From: Shimia aestuarii
Lineage (GTDB): Bacteria; Pseudomonadota; Alphaproteobacteria; Rhodobacterales; Rhodobacteraceae
DNA length: 64,000 nt
NCBI RefSeq assembly: GCF_022814865.1
Contig: NZ_JAKVRD010000003.1
Location: forward strand, 94,001 to 158,000
Reading direction: 5' to 3'
The notes under the pieces are model-generated. The model did no database searches and was not told the origin of the DNA. It saw nothing but the letters and a program-made list of their open reading frames with translations. Shown here one piece after another: positions 54,778 through 64,000 of this stretch (its first letter is position 1; each line of letters begins with the position of its first letter). A program made the translations under genes and the position numbers.

Positions 54778-54887
54778 ACGCGCCCGCCCATGGGGGCGGG
54801 TCGGGCGCGTGCGGGATGCAGGCATCCCGCATCCTCTGGCAAGGGCGATGACCTAAACACCCCCGTAGGGTGGGTTTCCAACCCACC
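54778..54887. repeat. Cluster of three strong hairpins upstream of the Abi-alpha-like gene
   Basis: ACGCGCCCG/CGGGCGCGT (54778-54810), GCGGGATGC/GCATCCCGC (54811-54830) and GGTGGGTT/AACCCACC (54869-54887) follow one another in 110 bp. The last is preceded by CCCCGTAG. Such GTAGGGTGGG hairpins recur as intergenic elements in many genomes. They lie next to the 11-bp tandem repeat. Confidence 0.75.
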
Positions 54888-54901
54888 ACCCCAAAACCCA
54901 C

Positions 54902-54945
54902 ACCGACGCAATACCGACGTGATACCGACGCGATACCGACGTGGC
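54902..54945. repeat. 11-bp tandem repeat, ACCGACG units, copy B
   Basis: Four units, ACCGACGCAAT, ACCGACGTGAT, ACCGACGCGAT and ACCGACGTGGC, fill 54902-54945. The first three are identical to copy A at 19643. It abuts the stop codon of the cbbY gene at 54947. Confidence 0.88.
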
Positions 54946-54946
54946 C

Positions 54947-55648
54947 TTACCCCACCAAACCCGCCACCAGCGCCCCCGCCAAATCCCCCCCCCGAAGCGA
55001 CGGCACCACCGCCTCCGCCCCGCTGAAATCATCCGCTTCCGTATAAACCGACGGCGTCACGACAACCGGAATCCCCGCCGCACGAGCCGACAAAACCCCG
55101 TTGCGGCTATCCTCCAACGCAAGGCACTCCTCCCCCCGAAGCCCCAACCGCGCGAGCGCCAGCTCATACACATCCCCCGCCGGTTTCTTCGCCGCGACCT
55201 CGTCTCCTGCGGCAATCACGTCGAACACATCCGCCCCCGTCTGCCCCCAGCAACACTGGCACAGCGCCTCGACATTCTCCCGCGAGGTCGTCGTCGCCAC
55301 CGCCACGCGCAGCCCCTTGGCCCGCGCCGTCTCAATCAACGCCCGCACGCCATCCCGTAAGGGCAGTGCCCCCTGCGCCAGAATATCCACGTAATAGCCT
55401 GTTTTCACGCGATGAATCCGCGCAATCTCCGCGTCGGAAAGCGTCACGCCCCCGGCCTCGGGCATCCCGCAAAACGCCCGTATCCGCTCCTTCCCGCCGG
55501 TGGTTTTCAACAGCGCGCGATAGTCCTCAACCGACCAATGCCAGCCCAAGCCCTCTTCGGAAAACACCCGGTTAAACGCCGCGCGATGCGCCTCTTCCGT
55601 CTCCGCCAGCGTCCCGTCCACGTCGAAAATCAACGCCTTGAGCGTCAC
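54947..55648 (-). CDS. cbbY: HAD phosphatase CbbY (xylulose-1,5-bisphosphate phosphatase type)
   Basis: 233 residues. FDVDGTLAETEEAHRAAFNR has the nucleophile Asp pair; TTGGKERI is characteristic of CbbY; VATTTSRENVEAL and AAKKPAGDVYELALARLGL with LALEDSRNG complete the HAD motifs. CbbY removes xylulose-1,5-bisphosphate, an inhibitory side product of RuBisCO. GTG at 55648 overlaps the cbbZ stop. Last gene of the minus-strand cbb operon. Confidence 0.9.
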   Translation of the reverse strand: MTLKALIFDVDGTLAETEEAHRAAFNRVFSEEGLGWHWSVEDYRALLKTTGGKERIRAFCGMPEAGGVTLSDAEIARIHRVKTGYYVDILAQGALPLRDGVRALIETARAKGLRVAVATTTSRENVEALCQCCWGQTGADVFDVIAAGDEVAAKKPAGDVYELALARLGLRGEECLALEDSRNGVLSARAAGIPVVVTPSVYTEADDFSGAEAVVPSLRGGDLAGALVAGLVG

Positions 55649-56292
55649 GCGAAAACCGCTCCCGTGATCTCGGTCAGCTGCCGGAAATCGTCGAACGCAT
55701 GAGCATGGGTCATCTCGTCGATGCCGACCTTGCGATACCCTTCGGTAAAGAGCGCAAACGGCACCCCCGCACGCTCCGCTGTCTCGGCATCAATCTCGCT
55801 ATCACCCACATAAAGCACATCCCCCCCAAGCGCCGCCATCGCCGCTTGCAGGGGCTTGGGATCGGGCTTTTTCGCATCCGTGCTATCGCCCCCGATCACC
55901 ACATCGAAAAACCCCTCAAGCCCCAGATCTTGAAGGATAATCACCGCTGGCTCATGCGGCTTGTTGGTGCAGACGCCAAGCCGATACCCGGCCTCTTTCA
56001 AACCCGCCAGCACCTCCGCCATATGCGGATAGGGCCGCGTCAGATCGGCGGCAGGGGCGTTATAGATCGCCAGCACATCCGCCACGATCCGATCAAACTC
56101 CGCCATATCCATCCCGACCCGCTGCATCACCCGCTCGACAAGCTTCGGAAGCCCGTTGCCGATGAACGCCGTCACCGTGGCAAGGTCCAAAGCGTCCTGC
56201 CCCTCGGCCGCCAGCATCTTGTTCACCGAAGCATGGATATCTGGCGCGCTATCGATAAGCGTCCCGTCGAGGTCAAAGATGATCGCCTTCAT
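55645..56292 (-). CDS. cbbZ: Phosphoglycolate phosphatase
   Basis: 215 residues. HAD motifs: FDLDGTLIDSAPDIHASVNK, GVCTNKP, KKPDPKPLQAAM and YVGDSEIDAETA. FIGNGLPKLVERV is typical of Gph/CbbZ. It dephosphorylates 2-phosphoglycolate made by RuBisCO oxygenation or DNA repair. The ATG at 56292 overlaps the stop of the redoxin gene, and its own stop overlaps cbbY. Confidence 0.93.
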   Translation of the reverse strand: MKAIIFDLDGTLIDSAPDIHASVNKMLAAEGQDALDLATVTAFIGNGLPKLVERVMQRVGMDMAEFDRIVADVLAIYNAPAADLTRPYPHMAEVLAGLKEAGYRLGVCTNKPHEPAVIILQDLGLEGFFDVVIGGDSTDAKKPDPKPLQAAMAALGGDVLYVGDSEIDAETAERAGVPFALFTEGYRKVGIDEMTHAHAFDDFRQLTEITGAVFA

Positions 56293-56834
56293 GCGCTTTC
56301 CTTCCATTTGATCGAACAGCCCATCGAGGGCACCTGGTCTTGCGGCCCCTTGCCCGTCTCGGCCACCTGCCTCATCGCCTCGTAAAGATCGCGGCGCAAA
56401 TCGGGCGGCCCGGCCTCCTTGCGCGACGCATCGAGACGCCCGCGATACTGCAAACCCCCTGTCGCGTCGAAGCCAAAGAAATCCGGCGTGCAAACCGCGT
56501 CAAAGACCCGCGCAACCGATTGATCTTCATCATAAAGATAGGGAAACGGCAGGCCGAGTTTCTTCATCTCGTCAAACCCGTCCTGCGGATAGGCTTCGGC
56601 GTCATTCGAACTGATCGCCGCGACACCGATGCCAAGCTCTTGCAGGTCTTCCGCATCCCGCAGGATCCGGTCCAGCACCGCCATCACATAAGGACAGTGG
56701 TTGCAGATGAACATGATGAGCGTGCCGTTCTCGCCGGCCACATCCCCAAACCCATAGGTCTTGCCATCCGTGGCCGGGAGCCTGAAATCCGGCGCCCGCC
56801 ATCCGAAGTCACAGACAGGAGGGATTGTGGCCAT
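56289..56834 (-). CDS. Thioredoxin-fold redoxin (AhpC/TSA-like)
   Basis: 181 residues, no signal peptide. APDFRLPATDGKTYGFGDVA begins a peroxiredoxin-like fold, and MFICNHCPYVMAVLDRIL carries a CNHC pair where thioredoxin has CGPC. This is the resA-like cytosolic group often annotated as thioredoxin family protein. It is coupled by ATGA to cbbZ. Its presence in a cbb operon may relate to redox control or may be incidental. Confidence 0.85.
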   Translation of the reverse strand: MATIPPVCDFGWRAPDFRLPATDGKTYGFGDVAGENGTLIMFICNHCPYVMAVLDRILRDAEDLQELGIGVAAISSNDAEAYPQDGFDEMKKLGLPFPYLYDEDQSVARVFDAVCTPDFFGFDATGGLQYRGRLDASRKEAGPPDLRRDLYEAMRQVAETGKGPQDQVPSMGCSIKWKESA

Positions 56835-56849
56835 GCGAGCACTCCATGA

Positions 56850-57773
56850 TTATGCGCCTTCCGGCACAAAGCGATAGGCGCCATCCTTGCGCTCGACACG
56901 GCCCATGCCGCCGCCGGGCAGGTGGTAGCCAATGATACGGGTCTGCTCGGCAGCGAGCTGATCCATGAGGCCAAGCCGCGTCTGAGCCGCTGTCTCGCGG
57001 TCCTGATCCGAACCAAGGCCAAGCCCCGGCGCCATGAAGGCCGCGTGGTGGTTGCCGATGCAATCGCCAAGAACCATGACGCTCTCGCTTCCCGAACGCA
57101 CCTCAAAGGCCATGTGCCCCGGCGTGTGACCATAGCTGGCGCGCGCTGCGATGCCGGGCAGGATTTCCTCACCATCGTCAAAGAAGGTGATCGCGTCCTC
57201 AAGCGCCTCCATCCGGCGTTTGGCGCCCACGGCCATGGTCTTGCGCGACTCCTCGATCGTATCGACGGTCTCGGGGTTCCACCAATAGTCCCATTCTTTG
57301 CGCCCCATCATATAGGTCGCCTCGGTAAAGAGCGGATCGTCGAAATCATCAAGCACGCCCCAAAGGTGATCGGGATGCGCATGGGTAAAGACCACGTGGG
57401 TGATATCGTCGACCGAAAGCCCCATCTCGTCGAGCGCATCGGGAAGCCTCCCGACGCTCGGCATGAAAGCGGGGCCAGAACCCGCGTCAAACAGGATCGT
57501 CCGCTCCCCGTCTTGCAAAAGCGTGACGTTGCACTCCGGCTCAAGCATCCCGTCGCCAAAGCCGAACTGCTTGAAGATCGGCGCACGGTCGGCCTCGGAC
57601 ACACCGTTAAAGGTGAAATCGACTGGCAAGACAAGGTTCCCGTCCGAAAGCGTGGTGAGTGTCTTTTCGCCAAGTGTCGCGCTGTCCGAGGCAAAGGCCA
57701 TACGCCCGCCAAGCCCTGCCAATGCTGTTCCGGCCACTGCCCCCTGAAGAAGGGTCCTCCGCGTCAGTGTCAT
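56850..57773 (-). CDS. Tat-exported MBL-fold metallohydrolase
   Basis: 307 residues. The N-terminus MTLTRRTLLQGAVAGTALAG is a twin-arginine signal. The zinc-binding HxHxDH motif is FTHAHPDHLWG, further ligands are in YGHTPGHMAFEV and LGDCIGNHHA. The group is related to quorum-quenching lactonases and SoxH-like hydrolases. Export to the periplasm makes a Calvin-cycle role unlikely although the gene is inside the cbb operon, 15 bp before the redoxin gene. Confidence 0.9.
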   Translation of the reverse strand: MTLTRRTLLQGAVAGTALAGLGGRMAFASDSATLGEKTLTTLSDGNLVLPVDFTFNGVSEADRAPIFKQFGFGDGMLEPECNVTLLQDGERTILFDAGSGPAFMPSVGRLPDALDEMGLSVDDITHVVFTHAHPDHLWGVLDDFDDPLFTEATYMMGRKEWDYWWNPETVDTIEESRKTMAVGAKRRMEALEDAITFFDDGEEILPGIAARASYGHTPGHMAFEVRSGSESVMVLGDCIGNHHAAFMAPGLGLGSDQDRETAAQTRLGLMDQLAAEQTRIIGYHLPGGGMGRVERKDGAYRFVPEGA

Positions 57774-57850
57774 GTGAACATCCTCTTAATCCTGTTTCGA
57801 GATGCTGAACATGCTGACATTCACAGATATGAATAGCAATGGGCTCATGC

Positions 57851-58540
57851 CTACCCCGCCTTCGCCGCTGCCTCGCGCAAGGCACGGATGTTCGCGCCGT
57901 AGACCTCGGGCGTGTCCACTGTGCCGCCCTTGAACACCGCCGAGCCCGCGACAAAGCAATCCGCGCCCGCCTCGACCAAAGCGCCAATCGTCGTCGGATC
58001 GACCCCGCCATCGACCTGAATATGGATCTCCCGATCGCCGATCATCTCGCGGATCTGACGCACTTTCTCGACGCTTGAGGGGATGAATTTCTGCCCGCCA
58101 AAGCCGGGGTTCACGCTCATCACAAGCACCATGTCACACAGGTCAAGCAGATACTCGACCGCCGAAGCTGGCGTGCCGGGATTAAGGCTGATCCCCGCCT
58201 TCGCCCCCGTCGCCTTGATCGCCTGCAACGTGCGGTGCGGATGCGGCCCGGCCTCAAAATGCGCCACGATCATATCGGCGCCCGCATCGGCATAGGCCTG
58301 AATATACGGGTCCACCGGCGCGATCATCAGATGCACGTCCATAAAGGTCTTCACGTGCGGGCGAAACGCCTTCACTGCCGGCGGGCCAAAGGTCAGGTTG
58401 GGCACGAAATGGCCGTCCATCACGTCCACATGCACCCAATCCGCCCCCTGATCCTCAATCGCCCGAATCTCCGCCCCGAAATTGGCGAAATCAGCAGAAA
58501 GGATCGACGGCGCGATCTTGATGTTGCGGTTGAAGGTCAT
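57851..58540 (-). CDS. rpe: Ribulose-phosphate 3-epimerase
   Basis: 229 residues. It interconverts ribulose-5- and xylulose-5-phosphate. [39 protein letters not shown] with metal His and Asp, DVHLMI, and [16 protein letters not shown] plus the second metal Asp in QVDGGVD are all present. It would be cbbE in a Calvin operon. Separated from fba by 97 bp containing two hairpins, the spot where a RuBisCO gene would be expected. Confidence 0.95.
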
Positions 58541-58570
58541 GGGTCAGCCCCCTGATATATTTCCAAAAAC

Positions 58571-58633
58571 GGCGGGGCAGTGGAGGACCGCCCCGCCGGG
58601 CATCTGAGGGGAGGACACGCCTCCGCCCCTCAG
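58571..58633 (-). terminator. Two hairpins in the fba-rpe gap
   Basis: GGCGGGGC/GCCCCGCC (58571-58578 with 58590-58597) and CTGAGGGG/CCCCTCAG (58604-58611 with 58626-58633) lie in tandem. Without T runs they are likely processing or partial-termination structures that lower expression of genes after fba. Confidence 0.6.
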
Positions 58634-58637
58634 AAAC

Positions 58638-59702
58638 TCATGCGGACTTCTGTACCAGCGCCCCGTCGGCATAGCGCGCAGCCATGTCGTCCATGTCGAT
58701 CACGGTGATCTTCGAGGCGTTGCCCGCCGTGCCAAAGCGTTCAAACCGGTCGCGGCAGAGGTCTTCCATCTCGTTCATCGCAGCGGTGAGGAACTTGCGC
58801 GGGTCGAACTGCGTCGGGGTTTCCGTCGCCACCTTGCGGAACTGCCCGGTCATCGCCATCCGGCAATCGGTGTCGATATTGACCTTGCGCACCCCCATCT
58901 TAATGCCCTTCTCGATCTCTTCGACCGGCACACCATAGGTCTGGGGCATCTCGCCGCCATAGGCGTTGATGAGGTCCTGCAATTCCTGCGGCACCGAGGA
59001 CGAGCCATGCATGACAAGATGCACCGAGGGCAGCTTTTCATGGATCGCCGCGATGGTCTTCATCGACAGGATGTCGCCATCGGGCTTGCGGGTGAACTTA
59101 TAGGCACCGTGGCTCGTGCCGCAGGCAATGGCGAGCGCGTCACATTGCGTCTTGGTGACGAAATCGACCGCCTGATCCGGGTCGGTCAAAAGCTGCTCTT
59201 GGCTAAGCTTGCCGGACGCACCGGAGCCGTCCTCTTCTGCCGCCTCGCCAGTCTCGAGCGAGCCAAGAACACCAAGTTCGCCCTCGACCGACGCACCGAC
59301 CCAATGCGCCATGTCGGTGACGCGCTTGGTGATGTCGAGGTTGTACTCATAGGAGGCGGGCGTCTTCATGTCCGCCTCGAGGCTGCCATCCATCATCACG
59401 CTGGTGAACCCGTGGCGAATCGCTGTCATGCAGGTCGCCTCGTTGTTGCCGTGGTCCTGATGCATACAGACCGGGATTTGCGGGAACATCTCGGCCAGCG
59501 CCTGCACCATGTGGCGCAGCATGATATCGCCCGCATAAGAGCGCGCCCCGCGGCTCGCCTGAAGGATCACCGGCGCATCGACCTTCTCGGCCGCCTTCAT
59601 GATAGCAAGGCCCTGTTCCATATTGTTGATGTTGAACGCGGGCACGCCATAGCCCTCTTCGGCGGCGTGATCGAGAAGTTGGCGAAGCGTAATCAAAGCC
59701 AT
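58638..59702 (-). CDS. fba: Fructose-bisphosphate aldolase, class II (Calvin subtype)
   Basis: 354 residues, the size of the CbbA-type enzyme. It makes fructose-1,6- and sedoheptulose-1,7-bisphosphate. Zinc ligands: MHQDHGNN, and Glu/His in HGAYKFT and HGSSSVP; phosphate loop [33 protein letters not shown] with FNINNMEQG is the usual start. ATG at 59702 follows CCTTTAAGGAGACCGCCGAC. It lies 13 bp downstream of gap. Confidence 0.96.
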
Positions 59703-59715
59703 GTCGGCGGTCTCC

Positions 59716-60714
59716 TTAAAGCTGGCCCATGTAAGCGGCGTTGTCGGCCATCCGGCACGAGAACCCCCACTCGTTATCATACCAAGCAAGGACACGCACA
59801 AGCCGTCCGCCCATGACTTTCGTCTGGTCACTGGCAAAATTCGACGAATGGGTGTTGTGGTTATAGTCGACCGAGACTTTCGGCTCGGTCTCATAGGACA
59901 GGACGCCCTGCATCCGGCCCGCCGCCGCCTCTGCGATGATCGCGTTGATATCGGCCTCGGTGACATCCTTGCCTGCCTGAAACGTCAGGTCCACAGCCGA
60001 GACATTCGGCGTCGGCACGCGTATGGCCGACCCGTCGAGCTTCCCGTTCAGCTCCGGCAGCACCTCGCCAATCGCCGCCGCCGCCCCGGTTGAGGTCGGG
60101 ATGAGGCTCATCGCTGCGGCCCGCGCGCGGTAGAGGTCTTTGTGACGCCGGTCGAGCGTCGGCTGATCCCCGGTATAGGAATGCACGGTCGTCATGATCC
60201 CGTTCTCGATCCCCACCGCATCGTTGAGCACCTTGGCAATCGGCGCGAGGCAATTCGTCGTGCAGGATCCGTTCGAGACAACTGCGTGCCCGGCCTCCAT
60301 CTTCTCATGATTCACACCGTAAACCGCTGTCAGATCGGCATTCTTCGCAGGCGCAGAGACAAGCACACGCTTTGCCCCCTGCCCCAGATGCACCGCCGAG
60401 GCCTCGCGCGAATTGAACTGCCCCGAACATTCAAGGACAACATCGACCCCCGACCAATCGAGCTCGGTCGGATCATAGGTCGAGAAGACCTTGATCGGAC
60501 CCTGCCCGACATCCATCGTATCGCTGTCGACGGTTATCTCGCCAGGAAACCGGCCATGCACCGAGTCATATTTGAGCAGGTGGGCGTTGGTCTCGATCGG
60601 GCCGGTGGCGTTCATTTTCACCACCTGAATATCGTCCCGCCCGCTCTCGATGATCGCGCCGAGGGTGCATCGCCCGATGCGCCCCATGCCGTTGATGCCT
60701 ATCTTGATCGTCAT
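59716..60714 (-). CDS. gap: Glyceraldehyde-3-phosphate dehydrogenase, type I
   Basis: 332 residues. Catalytic Cys151 in [13 protein letters not shown] and His in [20 protein letters not shown] binds the dinucleotide. Two positions that favour NAD are changed: the usual NDL is NAT (residues 35-37) and the usual LDGPHKD is LDRRHKD (Arg189-Arg190). Similar changes occur in NADP-using Calvin enzymes, so NADPH use is likely. Flanked by tkt and fba, so a cbbG role fits. ATG at 60714 follows GGGAGAGAACAAGACAC. Confidence 0.95.
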
Positions 60715-60734
60715 GTGTCTTGTTCTCTCCCAGC

Positions 60735-62726
60735 TCAGGCCATCAAGGCGCGGGCTTTGTCGGCGACGGCTTCTGCCGTGATGCCGAAATTGCGATAGAG
60801 GTCTTCCGCCGGGGCCGACGCGCCAAAGCCTGTCATGCCCACGAAACCGCCATTCTCTCCAATGAGTGCGTTCCACGTGCTCTGCACCGCCGCCTCAACG
60901 GCGACGCGTGGCGCAGCGCCAAGAACCTCGGCGCGATAGCCTGCGTCCTGCGCTGCGAAAAGCTCCATACAAGGCACCGAAACCACGGCCGCCCGCACCC
61001 CCTGAGCAGCAAGCAGATCGGCGGCTGTGAGCGCAATTTCAACCTCCGACCCGCTTGCCATCAGGGTCACGTCGCGCGTGCCCTCCGCCGCGCGCAGGAC
61101 ATAGGCCCCACGCTTGGTTCGGTTCTCCTCGTCATGCTCCGTGCGCACCGTGGGCAATCCCTGACGCGAGAGCGCAAGGACCGAAGGTGTGGACGGGTCG
61201 CTGATCGCGATTTCCCAAGCCTCCGCCGTCTCGATCGCATCGGCGGGCCGAAACACGTTTACGTTCGGCATGATCCGCAGGCTCGCCACATGCTCGACCG
61301 GCTGATGCGTCGGCCCATCCTCGCCAAGCCCGATCGAGTCATGCGTCATGACGTAAACCACCGGCTGCTGCATCAGTGCCGAGAGGCGGATCGCCGGGCG
61401 GCAATAGTCCGCAAAGGCCAGGAACGTGCCGCCATAGGGCTTGAGACCCCCATGCAGGCTGATCCCGTTCATCACTGCCGCCATGCCATGCTCGCGAATA
61501 CCGTAATGGATATACTCCCCGCCGTAATTCTCGCGGCTGACCGGGGTCATGCCGCCGGTGCGGGTGTTGTTCGAGCCGGTAAGGTCCGCCGAGCCGCCCA
61601 CGGTGTTCGGCAAGGTCGCATTCACCACCTCAAGCGCCATCTCGCTCGCCTTGCGGGTCGCCACCTTGGGCGCGTCCGCCGAGAGCTTGGCCTTATAGGC
61701 ATTGATCGCCGTGCCGAGCTTGGCCCCATCCACAGGCGCCATCGCTTCCTCAAAAGCGGCCCGCGACGTCGAGGCCTGAAGACGTGCCTCCCAAGCCTCC
61801 CGCGCCCGCTTGCCGCGCGCGGCAATCACCTCCCACGCCTCACGCACCTCCGCCGGGATCACGAACGGATCATGCGGCCAGCCCAAAACCTTCCGCGCCG
61901 CCGCGATCTCCTCTGCCCCAAGCGGCGCGCCATGCGTCGCACTGGTGCCCTGCTTGGTCGGCGCACCAAACCCGATGATCGTCTTGCACGCGATGAGCGA
62001 CGGGCGCGCATCCGCCTTGGCCGCCGCAATCGCCTCGGCCACCGCCTCGCGGTCATGCCCGTCCACCGCCTGCACATGCCAGCCGCTCGCGGCAAACCGG
62101 GCTTTCTGATCCGTCGAGGACGAGAGGCTCACACTGCCGTCAATGGTAATGTCATTGTCGTCCCAAAGCACAACCAACCGCCCAAGCCCCATATGGCCCG
62201 CAAAATCAATCGCTTCGTGGCTGATCCCCTCCATGAGACAGCCATCCCCCGCGATCACATAAGTGTAGTGATCGACCAGCTCATCCCCGAACCGGGCCTG
62301 CATCATCCGCTCGGCAAGCGCCATGCCGACCGCCGTGGTGATCCCTTGGCCCAACGGGCCGGTTGTCGTCTCGATCCCCTTGGCATGGCCATATTCCGGA
62401 TGTCCCGCCGTGCGCGATCCCCATTGGCGAAAGGCGCGGATCTGGTCCATGCCCATATCGTCATAGCCCAAGAGGTTGTTGATCGCGTAGACCAGCATCG
62501 AGCCATGCCCCGCACTCATCACAAAGCGATCCCGGTCCGGCCACGTGTCGGCGCTCGGATCCACAGTCATGAAACGGTTGAACAACACCGTCGCCACATC
62601 CGCCATACCCATCGGCGCACCGGGGTGGCCCGAATTTGCCGCCTGCACCGCGTCCATGCTGAGCGCGCGAATGGCATTGGCCATCTGCGTCTCCATATCG
62701 GTCGAAATTTTGGCCTGCTGGTTCAT
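60735..62726 (-). CDS. tkt: Transketolase
   Basis: 663 residues with the three ThDP-enzyme domains. [40 protein letters not shown] with the Mg-ThDP motif, [15 protein letters not shown] and [19 protein letters not shown] with the catalytic Glu/His are present. It moves two-carbon units between sugar phosphates. The ATG at 62726 follows GAGGAGAGACC. It lies between prk and gap as in Rhodobacter cbbT. Confidence 0.96.
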
Positions 62727-62752
62727 GGTCTCTCCTCCCTCTCGCGCACGCC

Positions 62753-63625
62753 TCAGGCGCGCTTGCTCTCGCTCACCAGACGGTGAACCATCGGCGTGAA
62801 AATAAGCTGCATCGCGAGGTCCATCTTGCCCCCCGGAATGACGATGGAATTCGCCCGGCTCATCCAGCTCCCCTCGATCATCGAGGTGAGATAGGGGAAG
62901 TCGATGCCGCGCGGGTTCTTGAACCGGATCACCACGATGCTTTCATCCGCCGTCGGAATCCAACGCGCACAGAACGGGTTCGAGGTATCGACCACCGGCA
63001 CACGCTGAAAGTTCACGTCCGTTTCGATAAACTGCGGACAGATGCAATGCACATAGGCATGCATCCGGCGCAGGATCGTGTCCGTGACCGCCTCCGTCGT
63101 ATAGCCCCGCTGCGCCTTGTCGCGGTGAATCTTCTGGATCCATTCGAGGTTGATGACCGGCACCACCCCGATCTTGAGATCTGCAAACTTGGCAAGGTTC
63201 ACATCGTCATTGACGACCGCCCCATGCAGCCCCTCGTAGAACAATAGGTCCGATCCCTCCTCGAACTCGGACCAATCGGTGAAAAGCCCCGGCGCCACGC
63301 CATAGCGTTCGGCCTCCATATCGTCATGCACATAGTGCCGTGTGCGGCCCTTGCCGGTCTCGCCATAGTCGCGAAACACCCGCTCCAATTCGCCCAACTC
63401 GTTGGCATCATATGAGAAATGGCTAAACGTCTCGTCGCCCGCCGCCTTGCGCTTTTCCAACTCGGTCTTCATCGCCGCGCGGTCATAGCGGTGAAACGCA
63501 TCGCCCTCGATGCTCACCGCGCTGATCCCCTCGCGGCGGAAAATCTGGTCGAAGGTGGATTTGACCGTCGACGTGCCCGCGCCGGAAGAGCCCGTGACAG
63601 AGATGATAGGGTGTTTCTTGCTCAT
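62753..63625 (-). CDS. prkB: Phosphoribulokinase
   Basis: 290 residues, the bacterial octameric class I size. P-loop [20 protein letters not shown] at residues 10-29, then [12 protein letters not shown] with catalytic Asp, [18 protein letters not shown] with Walker B-like Glu, and [12 protein letters not shown]. It makes ribulose-1,5-bisphosphate, which is used only by RuBisCO in known metabolism. No RuBisCO gene is in this operon. ATG at 63625 follows AAAGGACTCTGACATC. Confidence 0.96.
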
Positions 63626-63648
63626 GATGTCAGAGTCCTTTGCGCGCG

Positions 63649-64000
63649 TCAGTTGCGGAACAGACCACGGCTGCCGAACAGCGCCGAGACCTCGTGGTCG
63701 GGAAGATCGTGATAGGTCGCGACGCGGGCGACCTTCTCGGACGAACCAAATACGAAGGGTGTGCGCTGATGCAGGCGGCTCGCGCCCTTGCCCATGATCG
63801 GGTCACAGCCATCCGTGGCCCGCCCGCCCGCCTGTTCGACGACAAAGGCAATCGGCGCACATTCATAGAGCATCCGCAGCCGCCCCTGCTCATAGCCTTC
63901 ACGCTCGTCCGACGGATAAAGGAACACGCCCCCCCGCGTGATGATCCGATGGGTTTCCGCGACAAGCGACGCGACCCAACGCATGTTGAAATTGCGCCCG
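63649..64000 (-). CDS. fbp: Fructose-1,6-bisphosphatase class I, C-terminal part
   Basis: The C-terminal 116 codons are present; the gene runs off the right edge. [20 protein letters not shown] and [20 protein letters not shown], then [20 protein letters not shown], are the conserved substrate-binding end of class I FBPase. In cbb operons this is cbbF and also cleaves sedoheptulose-bisphosphate. It is 23 bp upstream of prkB and starts the visible operon. A cbbR regulator would be looked for beyond the edge. Confidence 0.93.

Follow-up and report, generated by a model that had tools for sequence, protein, structure and literature searches.

The window, a stretch of 64,000 nucleotides of the Shimia aestuarii genome, ends at its right edge in a Calvin-cycle operon that lacks RuBisCO, and this raises the question of where the organism keeps the enzyme, if it has it at all. 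The first-pass annotation of the locus left three options: RuBisCO was lost, it was moved, or ribulose-1,5-bisphosphate has another use. The genome gives a simpler picture, in which RuBisCO is missing at its usual spot in the operon because its gene lies in a small operon of its own elsewhere.

The genes that had been named in the window, fbp (cbbF), prkB (cbbP), tkt, gap, fba, rpe, cbbZ and cbbY, were confirmed in the order given and on the minus strand, and the products of cbbF, cbbP, cbbT, cbbG, cbbA, rpe and cbbZ each pass the cut-off of a curated, specific NCBIfam model. The operon begins with the class 1 fructose-bisphosphatase gene cbbF (63649..64695; NF006780, 416 bits, cut-off 358), which is cut by the window edge at 64000 with its 3' part inside. 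The phosphoribulokinase gene cbbP (62753..63625; NF011997, 490.6 bits, cut-off 362) follows, and its product matches the phosphoribulokinase of PDB entry 1a7j over 289 of 290 residues (E 3e-163). Next come the transketolase gene cbbT (60735..62726; TIGR00232, 818.8 bits, cut-off 682), the type I glyceraldehyde-3-phosphate dehydrogenase gene cbbG (59716..60714; TIGR01534, 404.7 bits, cut-off 367), the class II fructose-bisphosphate aldolase gene cbbA (58638..59702; TIGR01521, 612.4 bits, cut-off 496) and, beyond a gap, the ribulose-phosphate 3-epimerase gene rpe (cbbE, 57851..58540; TIGR01163, 288 bits, cut-off 212.6). The phosphoglycolate phosphatase gene cbbZ (55645..56295; TIGR01449, 208.3 bits, cut-off 180) and cbbY (54947..55648) close the operon. 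CbbY passes only a generic HAD cut-off in NCBIfam, and its best solved relatives are the 'Protein CbbY' chains 4uar and 4uas (E 1.1e-64), which point to a CbbY-type HAD phosphatase.

Two further minus-strand genes between rpe and cbbZ had been overlooked. The first encodes an MBL-fold hydrolase (56850..57773), for which the best NCBIfam model is an AidB-type lactonase, with 153 bits against a cut-off of 360; homologues occupy the same place in three operons (L018, L040 and G017) and occur in the cbb regions of G201, G248 and G288 as well. The second encodes a thioredoxin/AhpC-like protein (56289..56834) with weak, sub-cut-off NCBIfam matches only, and its homologues recur across many cbb operons, that of R. 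capsulatus among them. RuBisCO just to the right of the window edge was ruled out: the next 11.9 kb (L003) gave no hit to the RuBisCO queries, and there the remainder of cbbF is followed by a divergent cbbR (cbbR2, 64762-65703 in window numbering; 461 bits on the CbbR model, cut-off 450).

The annotation had proposed a genome search for cbbL and cbbM, and had held that a find in another operon would turn the case into relocation; the search placed cbbLS in another operon. The genome is a 70-contig draft of 3,972,025 bases with 99.99% estimated completeness and 1.08% estimated contamination. It holds a single match to PF00016 (C1:398237-399163, 466.8 bits, stop-free) and a single match to PF00101 directly after it. 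The unit reads cbbR1 (a divergent LysR-type gene), cbbL, cbbS, cbbQ and cbbO (L002:6769-12853), the gene order of the form I unit of R. capsulatus. CbbR1 reaches 258 bits on the CbbR model, below the cut-off of 450, and cbbQ and cbbO, with no NCBIfam match over cut-off, were named by position and by homology to copies at other loci. Residues 5-476 of CbbL align with the form I large subunit 7smk at 970 bits, conserved catalytic stretches included. The best solved matches, 7smk and 1svd (both about 970 bits), are Halothiobacillus form IA RuBisCO, and 5nv3, a red-type form IC enzyme, reaches 602 bits. By these alignments the single RuBisCO of the genome is form I and IA-like. It lies on a 409-kb contig, C1, with the end of cbbS about 9 kb from the contig end, and about 111 kb separate the start of cbbF from the closer end of its own contig, C3, so that the two units are at least about 120 kb apart. 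RuBisCO is thus not lost from the genome: cbbLS is intact, together with cbbQ and cbbO, on a contig other than that of the window. Nothing found points to ribulose-1,5-bisphosphate being used in another way, a reading that the presence of RuBisCO leaves unsupported.

The gap between cbbA and rpe was correctly described as 97 bp with two hairpins (58541..58637, minus strand). Its folding energy is −53.9 kcal/mol, against a mean of −39.5 (sd 3.8) for shuffled sequences (z −3.77; 0 of 200 shuffles folded as well). The second hairpin (58598-58570) is shaped like an intrinsic terminator, its stem of 12 pairs leading into TTTTT, in a scan that found 10 terminator-like patterns where 6.2 were expected and that alone proves little. 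A scan for sigma-70 sites from 54800 to 64000 found none. Six cbbM-bearing operons were folded and compared by eye: five show a strong hairpin between cbbM and rpe, and three show another between cbbA and cbbM. The two gap hairpins could, if they are homologous to these, be the pair that once flanked cbbM.

Relatives were compared at the slot after cbbA, as had also been proposed at the outset. The 88 operon loci mapped comprise the best 80 of 583 relatives and 8 from this and other genomes, and most of the mapped relatives hold RuBisCO in the slot: red-type cbbLS in 42, cbbM in 14 (one split, one decayed), cbbLSQO in 2, and cbbM together with red-type cbbLS in 1. The slot is empty in 16 and out of view in 13. 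Three of the empty loci (L041, L057 and L066) have no recognised cbbA and, as other layouts, were left out, and a fourth (L101) comes from the same genome as L013, that of Brevirhabdus pacifica, as its second operon and was not counted as an extra genome. The slot is thus empty in at least 12 genomes (L009, where cbbZ rather than rpe comes next after cbbA, L013, L020, L021, L039, L054, G094, G119, G205, the genome studied here, G000, and its congeners G013 and G017), and RuBisCO was found elsewhere in all 12. The unit is cbbR1-cbbLSQ(O) in eight of them, with cbbO out of view in one, and cbbR1-cbbLS with no cbbQ or cbbO seen in two (L013 and G205); in the last two (L054 and G119) the enzyme is form II-like and accompanied by cbbQ.

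Several loci show other states of the slot and of the separate unit. In G230, a decayed cbbM in three pieces, in different frames or overlapping, lies between cbbA and rpe (L109:11390-12133), and a further RuBisCO, form II-like and accompanied by cbbQ and cbbO, lies on another contig (L124). This unit, that of G119 (L125) and that in the genome of L054 (L144) have the order cbbR1-RuBisCO-cbbQ, with cbbO seen in L124 and L125, and in them a form II-like enzyme takes the place that form I cbbLS has in other genomes. G201 has two phosphoribulokinase operons (L100 and L101) with RuBisCO after cbbA in neither, and a single cbbLS 15 kb from one of them. In Jhaorihella thermophila (G134; L040, L127:4940-6218), the cbbM in the slot is in two overlapping pieces, a frame break that is either real or due to sequencing, and it is the only high-similarity RuBisCO found in that genome.

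The relationships of the operons suggest what the slot once held. In a tree of CbbP and CbbA with 66 rows, in which 19 of 63 inner branches are weak and drawn open, the operons of the window and of the two congeners (G017 and G013) form one group with an SH-aLRT of 99. Their sister is the operon of Thalassobius vesicularis (L007), which has cbbM in the slot; the support of 93 is below the starred level of 95, and the step in which cbbM is lost rests on that single row. On this evidence from sequence, cbbM was probably lost from the slot of the window, and the loss would have left the junction with its hairpins and terminator shape. On the well-supported branches of the same tree, the label 'empty' requires at least four changes. 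Thalassobius vesicularis, the nearest out-of-genus operon, shares cbbF-P-T-G-A followed by rpe, cbbZ and cbbY with the window. It differs in the cbbM of its slot and in that neither an MBL-fold nor a thioredoxin-like gene was seen in it, and its genome has only one RuBisCO match.

The RuBisCO on contig C1 could instead have stood between cbbA and rpe and moved out together with cbbQO. This relocation would have precedents in Thioclava pacifica (L025) and Defluviimonas (L029), in which cbbLSQO lies inside the slot, and in L020 and L039, in which it lies right beside the operon. The CbbL of this genome, however, is nearer by identity to that of free-standing units (90% for L020 and G094, 89% for G153) than to that of units in the slot (82-83%), and the slot of the nearest out-of-genus operon holds cbbM. 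Relocation of the present enzyme is accordingly unlikely, and the idea that RuBisCO was moved comes close but needs refining. Loss of a cbbM is the more likely history of the slot, because the nearest out-of-genus slot holds a form II cbbM and the C1 enzyme is a separately regulated form I.

The pairing of the two enzymes holds beyond this genome. RuBisCO is present in 3 of 25 genomes of the genus and phosphoribulokinase in the same 3; the two congeners, G013 and G017, have both units, with CbbL 97-98% identical. In a family sample of 295 genomes, NF011997 matches in 52 and passes its cut-off in 50. PF00016 matches in 93 of the 295, many at the lower scores typical of RuBisCO-like proteins, and RuBisCO was called above 380 bits (50 genomes), with the addition of the one gene split in two pieces in G134. 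By this measure all 50 genomes with a full-length phosphoribulokinase have RuBisCO, one of them split, and a further genome (G043) has RuBisCO and a phosphoribulokinase truncated by a contig end. Judged by distance alone, 35 of the 50 have both genes less than 9 kb apart on one contig. Among the other 15, five look like contig breaks within a RuBisCO-holding operon (G036, G093, G138, G248 and G268), eight lack an intact RuBisCO after cbbA and carry a RuBisCO unit elsewhere (G000, G094, G119, G153, G201, G205, G230 and G288), and two could not be judged at the slot (G084 and G127). One relative came up as a candidate for phosphoribulokinase truly without RuBisCO. In the metagenome-assembled genome PL36324bin_21 (G324; L057, 1-3600), cbbF-cbbP is followed by an inverted transporter gene, then rpe, and PF00016 finds no match. 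Because transketolase also fails to reach its cut-off there, the genome is probably incomplete, and RuBisCO is more likely absent for lack of sequence.

These counts bear on the reading that the RuBisCO contig is a contaminant and that the organism has a phosphoribulokinase, no RuBisCO and another use for ribulose-1,5-bisphosphate. The draft state of the assembly, its estimated contamination and the lack of RuBisCO in the window operon itself would fit this, but the contig is 409 kb long, the same pair of units occurs in two congeners, and none of the 50 phosphoribulokinase genomes in the family sample lacks RuBisCO, which makes contamination very improbable. That the assembly, in 70 contigs, dropped cbbM or cbbLS from the slot is hardly conceivable, given that the same junction recurs in G017 (80 bp) and G013 (105 bp) and that the gap, with its terminator-like hairpin, reads as ordinary intergenic sequence.

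The window operon and the cbbLSQO unit on the other contig are, with high confidence, the two parts of a split Calvin-cycle regulon that is probably functional. The Calvin-Benson-Bassham set of a phosphoribulokinase gene and bona fide genes for the large and small subunits of RuBisCO is present in one genome. Both gene sets are intact, both are found in each of the two congeners with either of them, and both are under purifying selection. For the 15 genes that were compared between congeners, a set without cbbY, the dN/dS values are 0.02-0.18, and the two halves therefore seem to be in use. The products of the two operons would work together in the cell. As predicted from their sequences, the phosphoribulokinase of the window operon would make ribulose-1,5-bisphosphate, the form IA-like CbbLS of the other operon would carboxylate it, and the rest of the window operon would regenerate the substrate. 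CbbZ and CbbY handle by-products of RuBisCO. CbbQO is a putative activase of the form I enzyme by analogy with Acidithiobacillus, in which this role has been shown (PMC4660213). Two CbbR proteins may control the two operons. Both divergent promoter regions are conserved among the three congeners, and no block common to the two regions was found in them by eye. The genome also encodes SoxB (851 bits, over cut-off), as do 16 of the 25 genomes of the genus, all three RuBisCO genomes included; in 14 control genomes, the SoxB model matches in 10 and passes its cut-off in none. Thiosulfate is, from this gene, a possible energy source.

A comparison with known systems places the arrangement. R. capsulatus has a form I cluster, lysR1-cbbLSQO, and a form II cluster, cbbFPTGAM, 2 Mb apart (PMC5506194). 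In the R. capsulatus SP108 genome both RuBisCOs were found in such surroundings, with cbbO out of view, and cbbM lies between cbbA and rpe. As in R. capsulatus, the form I unit of Shimia aestuarii includes cbbQO and a LysR-type gene of its own and lies far from the cbbFPTGA operon. The window has the cbbF-P-T-G-A order and divergent cbbR of the form II operon; unlike it, it has no cbbM between cbbA and rpe and carries an MBL-fold gene after rpe. Aliiruegeria sabulilitoris (L020) has the same empty slot and a cbbR1-cbbLSQO unit with a CbbL 90% identical, but its cbbLSQO comes right after cbbY and not on a distant contig. Form IC RuBisCO is reported in five of 47 roseobacter genomes (PMC5071866).

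The arrangement is the R. capsulatus plan minus cbbM, an ordinary finding with a published precedent, and the split, with RuBisCO in a separate operon, is common to several related bacteria. A caution follows for annotation: where a single window shows a pathway operon that lacks its signature enzyme, the enzyme is often encoded at another place in the genome. The recurrent turnover after cbbA is the only part of mild interest. We consider it an evenly balanced proposal that this position is a site of RuBisCO turnover in the family, where cbbM, red-type cbbLS, cbbLSQO or two forms at once come and go, and that it empties once a separately regulated cbbR1-RuBisCO-cbbQO unit exists elsewhere. 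In that scheme G230 would be an intermediate, and the end state would be seen in the window and its two congeners. The placement of RuBisCO in the family is fluid, yet phosphoribulokinase and RuBisCO stay together in each genome.
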